Of a DNA stretch of 64,000 nt, positions 42,505 to 46,633 are shown one piece after another. This DNA comes from Candidatus Puniceispirillum marinum IMCC1322 (GTDB lineage Bacteria > Pseudomonadota > Alphaproteobacteria > Puniceispirillales > Puniceispirillaceae): NCBI RefSeq assembly GCF_000024465.1, contig NC_014010.1:806001-870000 (forward strand), written 5' to 3'. Position 1 is the first letter of the stretch. Each line of letters opens with the position of its first letter. The position numbers were made by a program, and so were the translations under genes. A model generated the notes under the pieces. The model was given only the letters and a program-made list of their open reading frames with translations. It was not told the DNA's origin and did not search any database.

Positions 42505-42640
42505 GACTTTGCCCCTTAACGAGATCTATATGTGTATCAGATTGCGGAAAATCAAATGACTGTCTAAAAAACATAACTAATATTGCATATATTGCAATGA
42601 CACCCATATAGCAGTCACTTCAGAATGAACGCGGCAATCC

Positions 42641-42676
42641 ATATCCGCCATATCCGCCATATCCGCCATATCCGCC
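42641..42676. repeat. Tandem 9-bp repeat ATATCCGCC
   Basis: Four exact head-to-tail copies of ATATCCGCC lie 16-52 bases before the ATG of the photolyase FAD-domain gene, inside its leader. Copy number could vary by slippage and change leader length or structure. Confidence 0.9.
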
Positions 42677-42692
42677 CATATCAGGTCAGAAC

Positions 42693-43496
42693 ATGTCACT
42701 TCAGCCCCTTAAGTCCCGTTTTGATAGCCGCGAAGAGCTCATCGCATATGTTGCCAGCCTTAGCCCCAAGAGTGATGACTCTATTGTAAGCGCAACGATA
42801 GGTGGAGAAGAACCTGCACAAATCGCACTGAAAAATATTAATCCAGATCAATATGCGCATACGCGTAACTATCTTGATGGTGATGTGTCGCGGTTATCGC
42901 CTTATATCCGGCATGGCATTATCTCGCTTAATGATGTACGGAACCATGCTCTTTCGATCAGCGGTGAACCACAACAAACCGAAAAGTTCATTCAGGAACT
43001 GGCCTGGCGCGATTACTGGCAAAGACGCTACCGTCAAAATCCGCACGACATATGGCATGACATCGAAGCCTATAAGACCGGTTTTACGGCAGATGATTAT
43101 GCTGAAACGTTACCTGCGGATATTGAAGCTGGCGAAACGGGCGTTGCTGTTATCGATCATTTCATTCATGAACTATGCACGACTGGTTATCTGCATAATC
43201 ACGCGCGGATGTATGTTGCCGCCTATATTGTGCATTGGCGGCGCATAAAATGGCAAGCTGGTGCGCAATGGTTCCTGCATCACCTGCTTGATGGCGATCC
43301 AGCCAGCAATAATTTATCCTGGCAATGGGTAGCCAGCACCTTTGCCAACAAACCCTATTTTTACAATCTTGAGAATGTCGCTAAATATGCCGCACCAGGG
43401 TTGAATGTTGCATCACAGGATAATCTGCCGCTTGCCTATTCCTATGATGAGTTGGACAGCATGCTGTTTCCGTATCGTGAGGATCATAATGGCTAA
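42693..43496 (+). CDS. Stand-alone photolyase FAD-binding domain
   Basis: The 267-residue protein corresponds only to the C-terminal half of a photolyase. RLSPYIRHGIISLNDVR, FIQELAWRDYWQRRY, LHNHARMYVAAYIVHW and DGDPASNNLSWQWVAS are conserved FAD and DNA-lesion contacts. It lacks the N-terminal alpha/beta domain, which appears to be encoded by the next gene. AGG lies seven bases before ATG. It overlaps that gene by eight bases, so the two are probably translated together. It may need the partner for antenna or structural support. Confidence 0.85.
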   Translation: MSLQPLKSRFDSREELIAYVASLSPKSDDSIVSATIGGEEPAQIALKNINPDQYAHTRNYLDGDVSRLSPYIRHGIISLNDVRNHALSISGEPQQTEKFIQELAWRDYWQRRYRQNPHDIWHDIEAYKTGFTADDYAETLPADIEAGETGVAVIDHFIHELCTTGYLHNHARMYVAAYIVHWRRIKWQAGAQWFLHHLLDGDPASNNLSWQWVASTFANKPYFYNLENVAKYAAPGLNVASQDNLPLAYSYDELDSMLFPYREDHNG

Positions 43497-43944
43497 TCTT
43501 ATCATTCTTCATGAAGATGCTTTGCGCTTAAGCCATCCTATTTTCAACGATGACACGAAATCCCTGTCCGATCACAGCGACTGGAAAAAACCTGTTTTCA
43601 TCTGGGATCCAGATTATTTTGCGGATGCTGGATATAGCTTCAAACGGCTGGTTTTTATCTATGAAACGCTCAGCACAATGCCTGTTGATATATATTATGG
43701 CAAAATGGATGAGGTGATTGTTGACTTAATACAAGATCAGTCTGTGACTGATATATTTATCCCAGAAACACCAAATCCCCAGCTATACGCATTCATAGAT
43801 TTCGTCAGCCGTTTGGGGGCAACGCATATCATTGACGACGATGCTTTTGTGTCATTGGAACGTACACCTGATCTGGGGCGGTTTTTCCGCTATTGGAACA
43901 AGGTCAAGAAAGCCGCTTTATCACCCGATGGCATCAGATTATAG
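43489..43944 (+). CDS. Photolyase alpha/beta (N-terminal) domain-like protein
   Basis: The 151-residue protein resembles the nucleotide-binding alpha/beta half of photolyases: ANLIILHEDALRL opening strand, FKRLVFIYETL, DIYYGKMDEVIVDLI and a strand DIFIPETPNPQLYAFI. The start at 43489 (GAGG six bases upstream) overlaps the FAD-domain stop. Order is reversed compared with fused photolyases. Its 3' end overlaps the pobA stop by six bases. The assignment rests on pattern and context, not a strong motif. Confidence 0.65.
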   Translation: MANLIILHEDALRLSHPIFNDDTKSLSDHSDWKKPVFIWDPDYFADAGYSFKRLVFIYETLSTMPVDIYYGKMDEVIVDLIQDQSVTDIFIPETPNPQLYAFIDFVSRLGATHIIDDDAFVSLERTPDLGRFFRYWNKVKKAALSPDGIRL

Positions 43945-45117
43945 ATCAGGCAAAATTTCGACAGGAAGCCCAGCATAGTTTTCGGCAAATGATTTCATCG
44001 CGGCATCTGATGATAAAAGATAATCCATGTCAGCACGTTGAAGTTTCTTTTCAAATTCCGAATGGCGATGATCGGTATGGAGCAAAGTTGTGCAGAACCA
44101 GCTAAAGCGTTCGACTTTCCAAACGCGGCGAAGCGCACGAGATGAATATTCCTGCAGTTGGACTTCGCTTTCAGCACAATAGAAATCAATGAAGGCAGCC
44201 GATAATAAGGCTATGTCAGCAATGGCTAGGTTCAGCCCCTTTGCCCCGGTTGGTGGCACAATGTGGCCAGCATCGCCAGCTAGAAACAGACGTCCAGAGG
44301 ACATAGGCTCAGATACGAATGACCGCATCGGTGTGATGCCCTTTTGAATGATCTCACCACGATTTTGCTTAACGCCAATCCGGACATCTAATTCATCCCA
44401 TAATGCCTCATCCGACCAGTTATCAACATGATCATCATTATCAACCTGAATATAGAGGCGGCTGATGTCATTCGATCGCATCGATTGCAAAGCAAACCCT
44501 CTTGGATGCTGGGCATAGATGACAACTTTATTCATAGGCGTTGCCTTGGCCAGAATACCCAGCCATGAATAGGGATAAATCAGATCAAAATCATTGCGTA
44601 TAGATGTTGGCATAGCCTTTCGGGACACACCGCGAAATCCATCACAGCCAGCCACAAAATCACAGTTTAGTGTATGGTCTTTGCCTTCACGACGGTAGAG
44701 TATCTGCGGGGAAATGCCATCAATGTCATGAATTGCAGTCACCTCGGCATCAGTTATAATGACCGTGCCATTATCCACATGCTGACGAAATAAATCTTTG
44801 ACAATTTCAGTCTGGCCATAGGCCATAACCTGTCTGCCACCATCATATTTTTCAATGCTGATGGGATGAATACCCCCATCAAAAGCAATATCAATGCCGT
44901 GATGAGGCAATCCTTCACGGTCCATTCGTGCGCCTAGGCCGGCGGCCCGTAAAATATCAACTGTACCTTGTTCGAGAATGCCGGCCCGAATACGCGCCTC
45001 ACAATAGCTTTGTGACCGCGCTTCAATAATGACCGATGAAATTCCTCTAAGATAAAGGATATGCGATAATAACAGGCCAGCGGGCCCTGCCCCTATAATT
45101 GCAACTTGAGTCCGCAT
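43939..45117 (-). CDS. pobA: 4-Hydroxybenzoate 3-monooxygenase
   Basis: This FAD monooxygenase hydroxylates 4-hydroxybenzoate to protocatechuate with NAD(P)H. It has GAGPAGLLLSHIL near 9-21, the PobA-specific RIRAGILEQGTVD near 42-54, the DG fingerprint GCDGFRGVSR and the second FAD motif LFLAGDAGHIVPPTGAKGLN. The length of 392 matches PobA. No pobR or pca genes are adjacent, so it stands alone. Ribosome site is weak. Confidence 0.93.
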   Translation of the reverse strand: MRTQVAIIGAGPAGLLLSHILYLRGISSVIIEARSQSYCEARIRAGILEQGTVDILRAAGLGARMDREGLPHHGIDIAFDGGIHPISIEKYDGGRQVMAYGQTEIVKDLFRQHVDNGTVIITDAEVTAIHDIDGISPQILYRREGKDHTLNCDFVAGCDGFRGVSRKAMPTSIRNDFDLIYPYSWLGILAKATPMNKVVIYAQHPRGFALQSMRSNDISRLYIQVDNDDHVDNWSDEALWDELDVRIGVKQNRGEIIQKGITPMRSFVSEPMSSGRLFLAGDAGHIVPPTGAKGLNLAIADIALLSAAFIDFYCAESEVQLQEYSSRALRRVWKVERFSWFCTTLLHTDHRHSEFEKKLQRADMDYLLSSDAAMKSFAENYAGLPVEILPDL

Positions 45118-45866: not shown

Positions 45867-46181
45867 TTAAGACTTGCGCCCAACCGATCCGATAACTTCG
45901 GCACCAAGTTCGATGGCAAGTGAATTCGCTCTTAACTCTCCATCAACTTTTGCTGTTGACCCAACTGATAGTTCTTCAGTGGTCAAAGTTCCGTTGAAAT
46001 CACCTGCTATTTCAACACGATCAGCGTTCATAGTGCCTTTGAAAACGCCCATCTCTTCAAGGAATACTTCAACAGCAATCAACTCACCGGAAAAATTACC
46101 TGAAATAACAACCGGTGATTCACCTCCGTCAAGCTTACCTTCAACGACCATGCCCTGTATGATGTTTGTACTTCCGTCCAT
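45867..46181 (-). CDS. Bactofilin family protein (copy 3)
   Basis: A small 104-residue protein built of short beta-strand turns (VVISGNFSGEL, VEIAGDFNGTL, VGSTAKVDGELRANSLAIELGAEV) spaced in the roughly six-residue periodicity of the bactofilin beta-helix. Bactofilins polymerise without nucleotide into cytoskeletal filaments. It is the third and most compact of three tandem copies and has almost no tail. AAGGA precedes the ATG by eight bases. Confidence 0.82.
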   Translation of the reverse strand: MDGSTNIIQGMVVEGKLDGGESPVVISGNFSGELIAVEVFLEEMGVFKGTMNADRVEIAGDFNGTLTTEELSVGSTAKVDGELRANSLAIELGAEVIGSVGRKS

Positions 46182-46228: not shown

Positions 46229-46633
46229 TTATGAGGCTTCATCACCTGTTTCAGCATCATCGCTGGCGGCATCTTCATCTTCCGGCTCCGCAACACTATT
46301 GCCCGTATCTTCGGTCCAGTTATGAACAACACGGCAATTCAGTGCGGCACCACGATCCATTTGCAAAGATTGATAATGGACTTCGCCAGCGATCTGCGCT
46401 GTTTCGGTTGCCCACACACTATGGGCGTGCATTTCACCATGATAATGACCTGAAATAACAACCAGATCAGATTTGATCGCGCCTCGAAATTCACCTTCTG
46501 GTCCGATTGAAACTTTTTCAGCTTCCAGATCTGCTTCGACGGTGCCATTGATCTCGATTGACTTGGCATTGCTTATCGTGCCTGAAAAATGAGCGCCCTC
46601 ACCTATGACAGCTTTGGTTTTAGATATATCCAT
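46229..46633 (-). CDS. Bactofilin family protein (copy 2)
   Basis: A 134-residue protein: short N-tail, the beta-helix core (IEINGTVEADLEAEKVSIGP, VVISGHYHGEM, AQIAGEVHYQSL, MDRGAALNC) and an acidic C-tail of Asp/Glu/Ala. The core contains several His and a Trp not usual in bactofilins. It is the middle gene of the three-copy set, with 46- and 47-base gaps, and has AGAGGA before ATG. Confidence 0.85.
   Translation of the reverse strand: MDISKTKAVIGEGAHFSGTISNAKSIEINGTVEADLEAEKVSIGPEGEFRGAIKSDLVVISGHYHGEMHAHSVWATETAQIAGEVHYQSLQMDRGAALNCRVVHNWTEDTGNSVAEPEDEDAASDDAETGDEAS

Follow-up and report, generated by a model that had tools for sequence, protein, structure and literature searches.

Well-studied photolyases are single chains. 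Within the 64,000-nucleotide stretch of the Candidatus Puniceispirillum marinum IMCC1322 genome examined here (the window; NC_014010.1, positions 806,001 to 870,000, lying on a single 2,753,527-base contig), two short adjacent genes were proposed in an initial annotation to encode the FAD-binding and alpha/beta domains of such an enzyme as separate proteins, catalytic half first, with genes overlapping by 8 nt. That gene arrangement was confirmed (Table 1), and the locus raises the question of whether the two products form one photolyase, of what kind, and whether they are made as one polypeptide or two.

Table 1 Coordinates of the gene pair, its junction and the divergent gene, as positions in the window
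Feature	Position	Strand	Description	Basis
P0003	40957..42504	-	515 aa, two-domain CPF protein, divergent from the pair	Pfam, alignment
P0001	42693..43496	+	267 aa, stand-alone photolyase catalytic (FAD-binding) domain	Pfam, alignment
GAGG, Shine-Dalgarno-like	43479..43482	+	within the P0001 gene, 6 nt ahead of the P0002 ATG	sequence reading
P0002	43489..43944	+	151 aa, stand-alone photolyase-type alpha/beta (N-terminal/antenna) domain; start ATG 43489, stop 43942-43944	
8-nt overlap ATGGCTAA	43489..43496	+	P0002 start and P0001 stop, +1 frame relation	

P0001 belongs to FAD_binding_7 (Pfam, E 1.6e-26), the catalytic domain of the photolyase/cryptochrome family (CPF), and matches the catalytic half of solved photolyases, e.g. 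1OWL and 1TEZ; no match to any N-domain family was returned by the Pfam search. An alignment anchored to the A. nidulans photolyase, whose numbering is used here, indicates that P0001 retains E283, W286, R287, N349, M353, W367, D380, D382, N386, W390 and W392. Equivalents of the FAD-contact residues D380, D382, N386, R287 and S244 are all present, as are E283, W286, N349, M353 and W392, which are diagnostic of CPD photolyases, and the active site pattern, as read from this alignment, is CPD-type. At W314, the third photoreduction-triad tryptophan, P0001 has alanine instead. (6-4) photolyases carry histidines at the positions of N349 and M353. None of the four Fe-S cysteines of Phr4/Phr5/Phr6 photolyases (C169, C254, C257 and C263 in RS9916), a set that also marks Fe-S bacterial (6-4) photolyases, was found in P0001, where the aligned columns hold V, N, S and L. 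One alignment, spoiled by a fused Bacteroidota row, was discarded.

P0002 gave no Pfam match, no NCBIfam match and no significant match to the PDB at the sequence level. It nevertheless is a homologue of the photolyase N-domain, as indicated by four comparisons. By blastp it shares 27% identity over ~70 aa with the N-domain of the neighbouring P0003 (E 2.7e-5), and a profile built from 20 P0002 relatives matches an ordinary photolyase of a different alphaproteobacterial genome at its N-terminus (E 4e-5), with weak matches to most other canonical N-domains tested. Profile-profile comparison with canonical photolyase N-domains using hhalign returned 97.5% over the full length, versus 0.2% for an SDR and 0.0% for a GTPase, both taken as controls from the same window. 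An AlphaFold model based on a six-sequence alignment (pLDDT 70, pTM 0.64) has an alpha/beta fold with five strands; Foldseek listed 50 PDB matches for it, every one a photolyase or cryptochrome (best E 4.9e-4). Both hhalign and Foldseek place P0002 with the Rossmann-like alpha/beta domain of the CPF, and the outcome that the initial annotation had named as fatal to its proposal, a P0002 structure unrelated to the photolyase N-domain, did not materialise. The protein ends in a conserved RFFRYWNKxKK helix. Class I CPD photolyases (A. nidulans 1OWL, E. coli 1DNP) resemble the window pair in both domain folds and in the FAD- and CPD-contact residues, but differ in having the opposite domain order in one chain, W314, and a classical antenna motif in the N-domain.

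The search with profiles or sequences of P0001 and P0002 covered 61 relatives and 385 genomes from the class. The two were found together in the same 19 of the 61 relatives and in the same 11 alphaproteobacterial genomes, corresponding to 28 distinct genomes. Neither half ever occurred alone: a P0001-type half lacking a P0002-type partner was seen in 0 of 28 genomes, and one extra match to the P0002 profile proved to be a canonical photolyase N-domain. In all, 34 split loci were found; those with names come from SAR116, Micavibrio, Caulobacterales and gammaproteobacterial bins. Viral contigs contained 16 pattern matches but 0 relatives of the pair, and phage records gave solely distant photolyase matches (~31-35%). 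Two MAG records probably carry the wrong name: L029 is titled Akkermansia muciniphila, and L024, titled Klebsiella pneumoniae, is almost the same as L023, a gammaproteobacterial bin from a lake. The genes for both P0001 and P0002 are under purifying selection, with dN/dS of ~0.1-0.3 in most close pairs and 0.47 for P0002 in one pair.

Junctions of the 34 split loci are diverse, comprising 8-nt overlaps (11), 4-nt overlaps (10), 1-nt overlaps (7) and gaps of 0-14 nt (6). Relative to the P0001 gene, the P0002 gene lies in frame +1 in 14 loci, in +2 in 19, and in frame 0 behind a stop in one. With every frame relation represented, the junctions cannot be explained by one programmed frameshift, while coupled translation of two proteins does fit, and P0002-type genes have their own start codon with an SD-like sequence ahead of it. 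The junction pattern across these loci argues that P0001 and P0002 would be made as two polypeptides, and the overlap in the window is likely to reflect translational coupling.

The reversed architecture, both split and fused, is already published. Marine Synechococcus and Cyanobium have phr4 and phr5 next to each other in different frames, with phr6 as the fused form (Haney et al. 2022, PMC9426592). As in the window pair, the FAD half comes first and the alpha/beta half second, in adjacent genes or in one fusion, but Phr4 and Phr6 have the four Fe-S cysteines that P0001 lacks. On the basis of these cysteines Phr4/Phr5 was predicted to be a (6-4) photolyase; Synechococcus that had lost phr4 survived UV-C 20-30-fold less well, and E. 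coli given both phr4 and phr5 survived UV-C better, a protection that did not depend on light (Haney et al. 2022). That study did not decide between one phr4/phr5 product and two, with frameshifting considered and the junction strictly kept in Synechococcus, whereas the junction varies among relatives of the window pair and its pattern points to two polypeptides. What is new here is the reverse-order pair in SAR116-type and other bacteria, together with CPD-type catalytic residues and the loss of Fe-S cysteines from the subclade to which the window pair belongs. Most members of this subclade have kept the first cysteine alone, and P0001 has none at these columns. Putative orthology to Phr4/Phr5 draws on the shared architecture, on the tree and on how the Fe-S cysteines are distributed in intermediate relatives.

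Those intermediate relatives include Deinococcus proteins annotated as "FAD-binding domain-containing protein" and three alphaproteobacterial split pairs, all with C, C, C, C at the Fe-S columns in nearly the spacing reported by Haney et al. The Deinococcus proteins have the same domains in the same order as the window pair, though with the four cysteines that P0001 lacks, and occur split and fused within one genus. Three Deinococcus plasmids encode both domains in one protein (WP_151845379.1, WP_114673394.1 and WP_124875266.1), the C-terminal half of which matches the P0002 profile at 99.5% (hhalign), while Deinococcus sp. QL22 has a split pair with a 4-nt overlap (WP_249396019.1/WP_249396018.1). 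That the halves are fused in one species and separate in another is good evidence, though no proof, that they work as one enzyme, which is the probable reading. A shorter reversed fusion, directly followed by a P0003-like gene, is present in two Bacteroidota.

In the phylogenetic tree the reverse-order proteins share a single branch, separated from the canonical photolyases (100/100). The NewPHL-type fusions (100/100) and the Bacteroidota fusions (100/98) form separate groups in this branch, and Fe-S and Fe-S-less Phr4/5/6-like proteins, P0001 included, group together (89/97). Split pairs without the Fe-S cysteines cluster together (85/88); the fused Deinococcus proteins sit among the split pairs that have them. 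The tree, which holds no cyanobacterial Phr4-6 rows, was rooted at its midpoint only and has long branches, which limits what it can say on whether splitting or fusion came first.

A further reversed class is Phr7, which consists of a FAD domain plus a Z-domain (Haney et al. 2022, PMC9426592). The Phr7, NewPHL or short photolyase-like class goes back to Xu et al. 2021, as that work is cited by Haney et al. and in PMC9649867. Homologues from Ruegeria TM1040, Asticcacaulis, Novosphingobium and Peteryoungia probably belong to this class. Like P0001, NewPHL proteins have the FAD domain first, no Fe-S cysteines and the same CPD-type residues, but they are encoded by one fused gene with the C-terminal Z-domain and have their own branch in the tree, and the window pair did not group with these fusions by tree or hhalign. 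The Z-domain matched the P0002 profile at 1.8% (E 0.01), which is not significant, and homology is not claimed. In five sequences (L046-L049 and L029) the C-terminal ~150 aa are collinear with P0002 over 133 columns and end in a similar GFFxxxKK helix. The Z-domain might be a worn alpha/beta domain, as a deeper profile might show.

Taken together, we consider it likely that the pair encodes a DNA photolyase with two subunits, belonging to the reverse-order (Phr4/Phr5/Phr6-like) CPF branch. P0001 and P0002 would be translated separately, but coupled, from the overlapping genes; P0001 would bind FAD and take the lesion into a CPD-type active site, where light would drive electron transfer from reduced FAD; and P0002 would dock where the usual N-terminal domain sits, lending stability to the enzyme and perhaps carrying an antenna pigment. 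The two-subunit assembly put forward in the initial annotation is supported by the obligate pairing in 28 genomes and by the natural fusions in Deinococcus, from which we infer the complex itself; repair activity, a preference for CPD over (6-4) lesions and any antenna function are likewise putative. An AlphaFold prediction of the read-through chain P0004 (TAAT read as N) was poor (pLDDT 55, pTM 0.37) and uninformative on docking.

Were P0001 instead to work alone or as a light sensor, P0002 would be a separate partner, such as a regulator, rather than a structural half. Retention of all FAD-binding residues tested is compatible with this, but a catalytic half that in 28 genomes never occurs without P0002, the Deinococcus fusions, and the end-to-end collinearity of P0002 with the photolyase N-domain make it an unlikely reading. 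The same architecture as Phr4/Phr5, and the matching cysteine spacing of the nearest Fe-S relatives, would suit a (6-4) photolyase of reversed order, which is what Haney et al. proposed for Phr4/Phr5 from the Fe-S cysteines. With all four Fe-S columns lacking cysteine, N and M in place of the two histidines, and both E283 and W286 kept, P0001 appears distinctly unlikely to be such an enzyme. Very unlikely, and the least probable of the three, is that programmed ribosomal frameshifting joins P0001 and P0002 into one reverse-order photolyase. This route was left open for the strictly kept Synechococcus junction (PMC9426592), fused forms exist in Deinococcus, and a +1 shift at the P0001 stop in the window would give read-through; three overlap lengths plus gaps, in frames +1, +2 or 0, and separate initiation signals for P0002-type genes all speak against it.

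A two-subunit enzyme is the simple answer to the one-or-two-protein question in Synechococcus, given that relatives' junctions occur in every frame relation, and the pair provides small, well-separated subunits with which the role of the alpha/beta half could be addressed. In the Fe-S-less subclade, reversed architecture and Fe-S cluster are uncoupled, and the CPD-type residues there question a (6-4) assignment based on cysteines alone. A bolder and rather improbable scenario is that the SAR116-type pair is an obligate heterodimer without an Fe-S cluster whose split genes represent the old state in this branch, with canonical and reversed orders arising as independent fusions of the same two genes and the Deinococcus and Cyanobium fusions as later refusions.

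The initial annotation had also noted a full photolyase divergent from the pair. A two-domain CPF gene, P0003, does lie there, but without a CPD-type active site: positions 283, 349, 353, 386, 390 and 392, which in CPD photolyases are E, N, M, N, W and W, hold R, F, A, H, C and M. Given these replacements, it would be wrong to treat P0003 as a second ordinary photolyase. It falls in a separate CPF group (100/100) that has His at the position contacting FAD-N5. P0003-like genes also adjoin reverse-order photolyases elsewhere, being divergent in SAR116-type genomes (also L016, L018, L020 and L021) and, in Bacteroidota (L028:4077-5555 and L045:3543-5024), on the same strand and overlapping the reverse-order photolyase gene. 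This shared neighbourhood in SAR116-type genomes and Bacteroidota suggests a functional link between the two. An ordinary class I photolyase with an adjacent PF04244 (PhrB/DPRP, PhrB-like) protein is encoded at ~2251720-2253889 of the contig, 1.4 Mb from the pair, bringing the genome to four CPF systems (the P0001/P0002 pair, P0003, the class I photolyase and the PF04244 protein); several further CPF genes likewise coexist in hosts of Phr4/Phr5/Phr6.

Between the divergent genes, immediately 5' of the P0001 start, the 9-mer CCATATCCG is repeated in 4.8 tandem copies (42639-42682). At its 3' end the P0002 gene is overlapped by 6 nt by a convergent gene (43939-45117, minus strand) whose translation resembles 4-hydroxybenzoate 3-monooxygenase (PobA). 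Further downstream, and judged by translations only, are three adjacent small bactofilin-like genes on the minus strand (45867-46181, 46229-46633 and 46680-47099) and, divergent from this trio, an M23-type peptidase gene on the plus strand (47627-49225).
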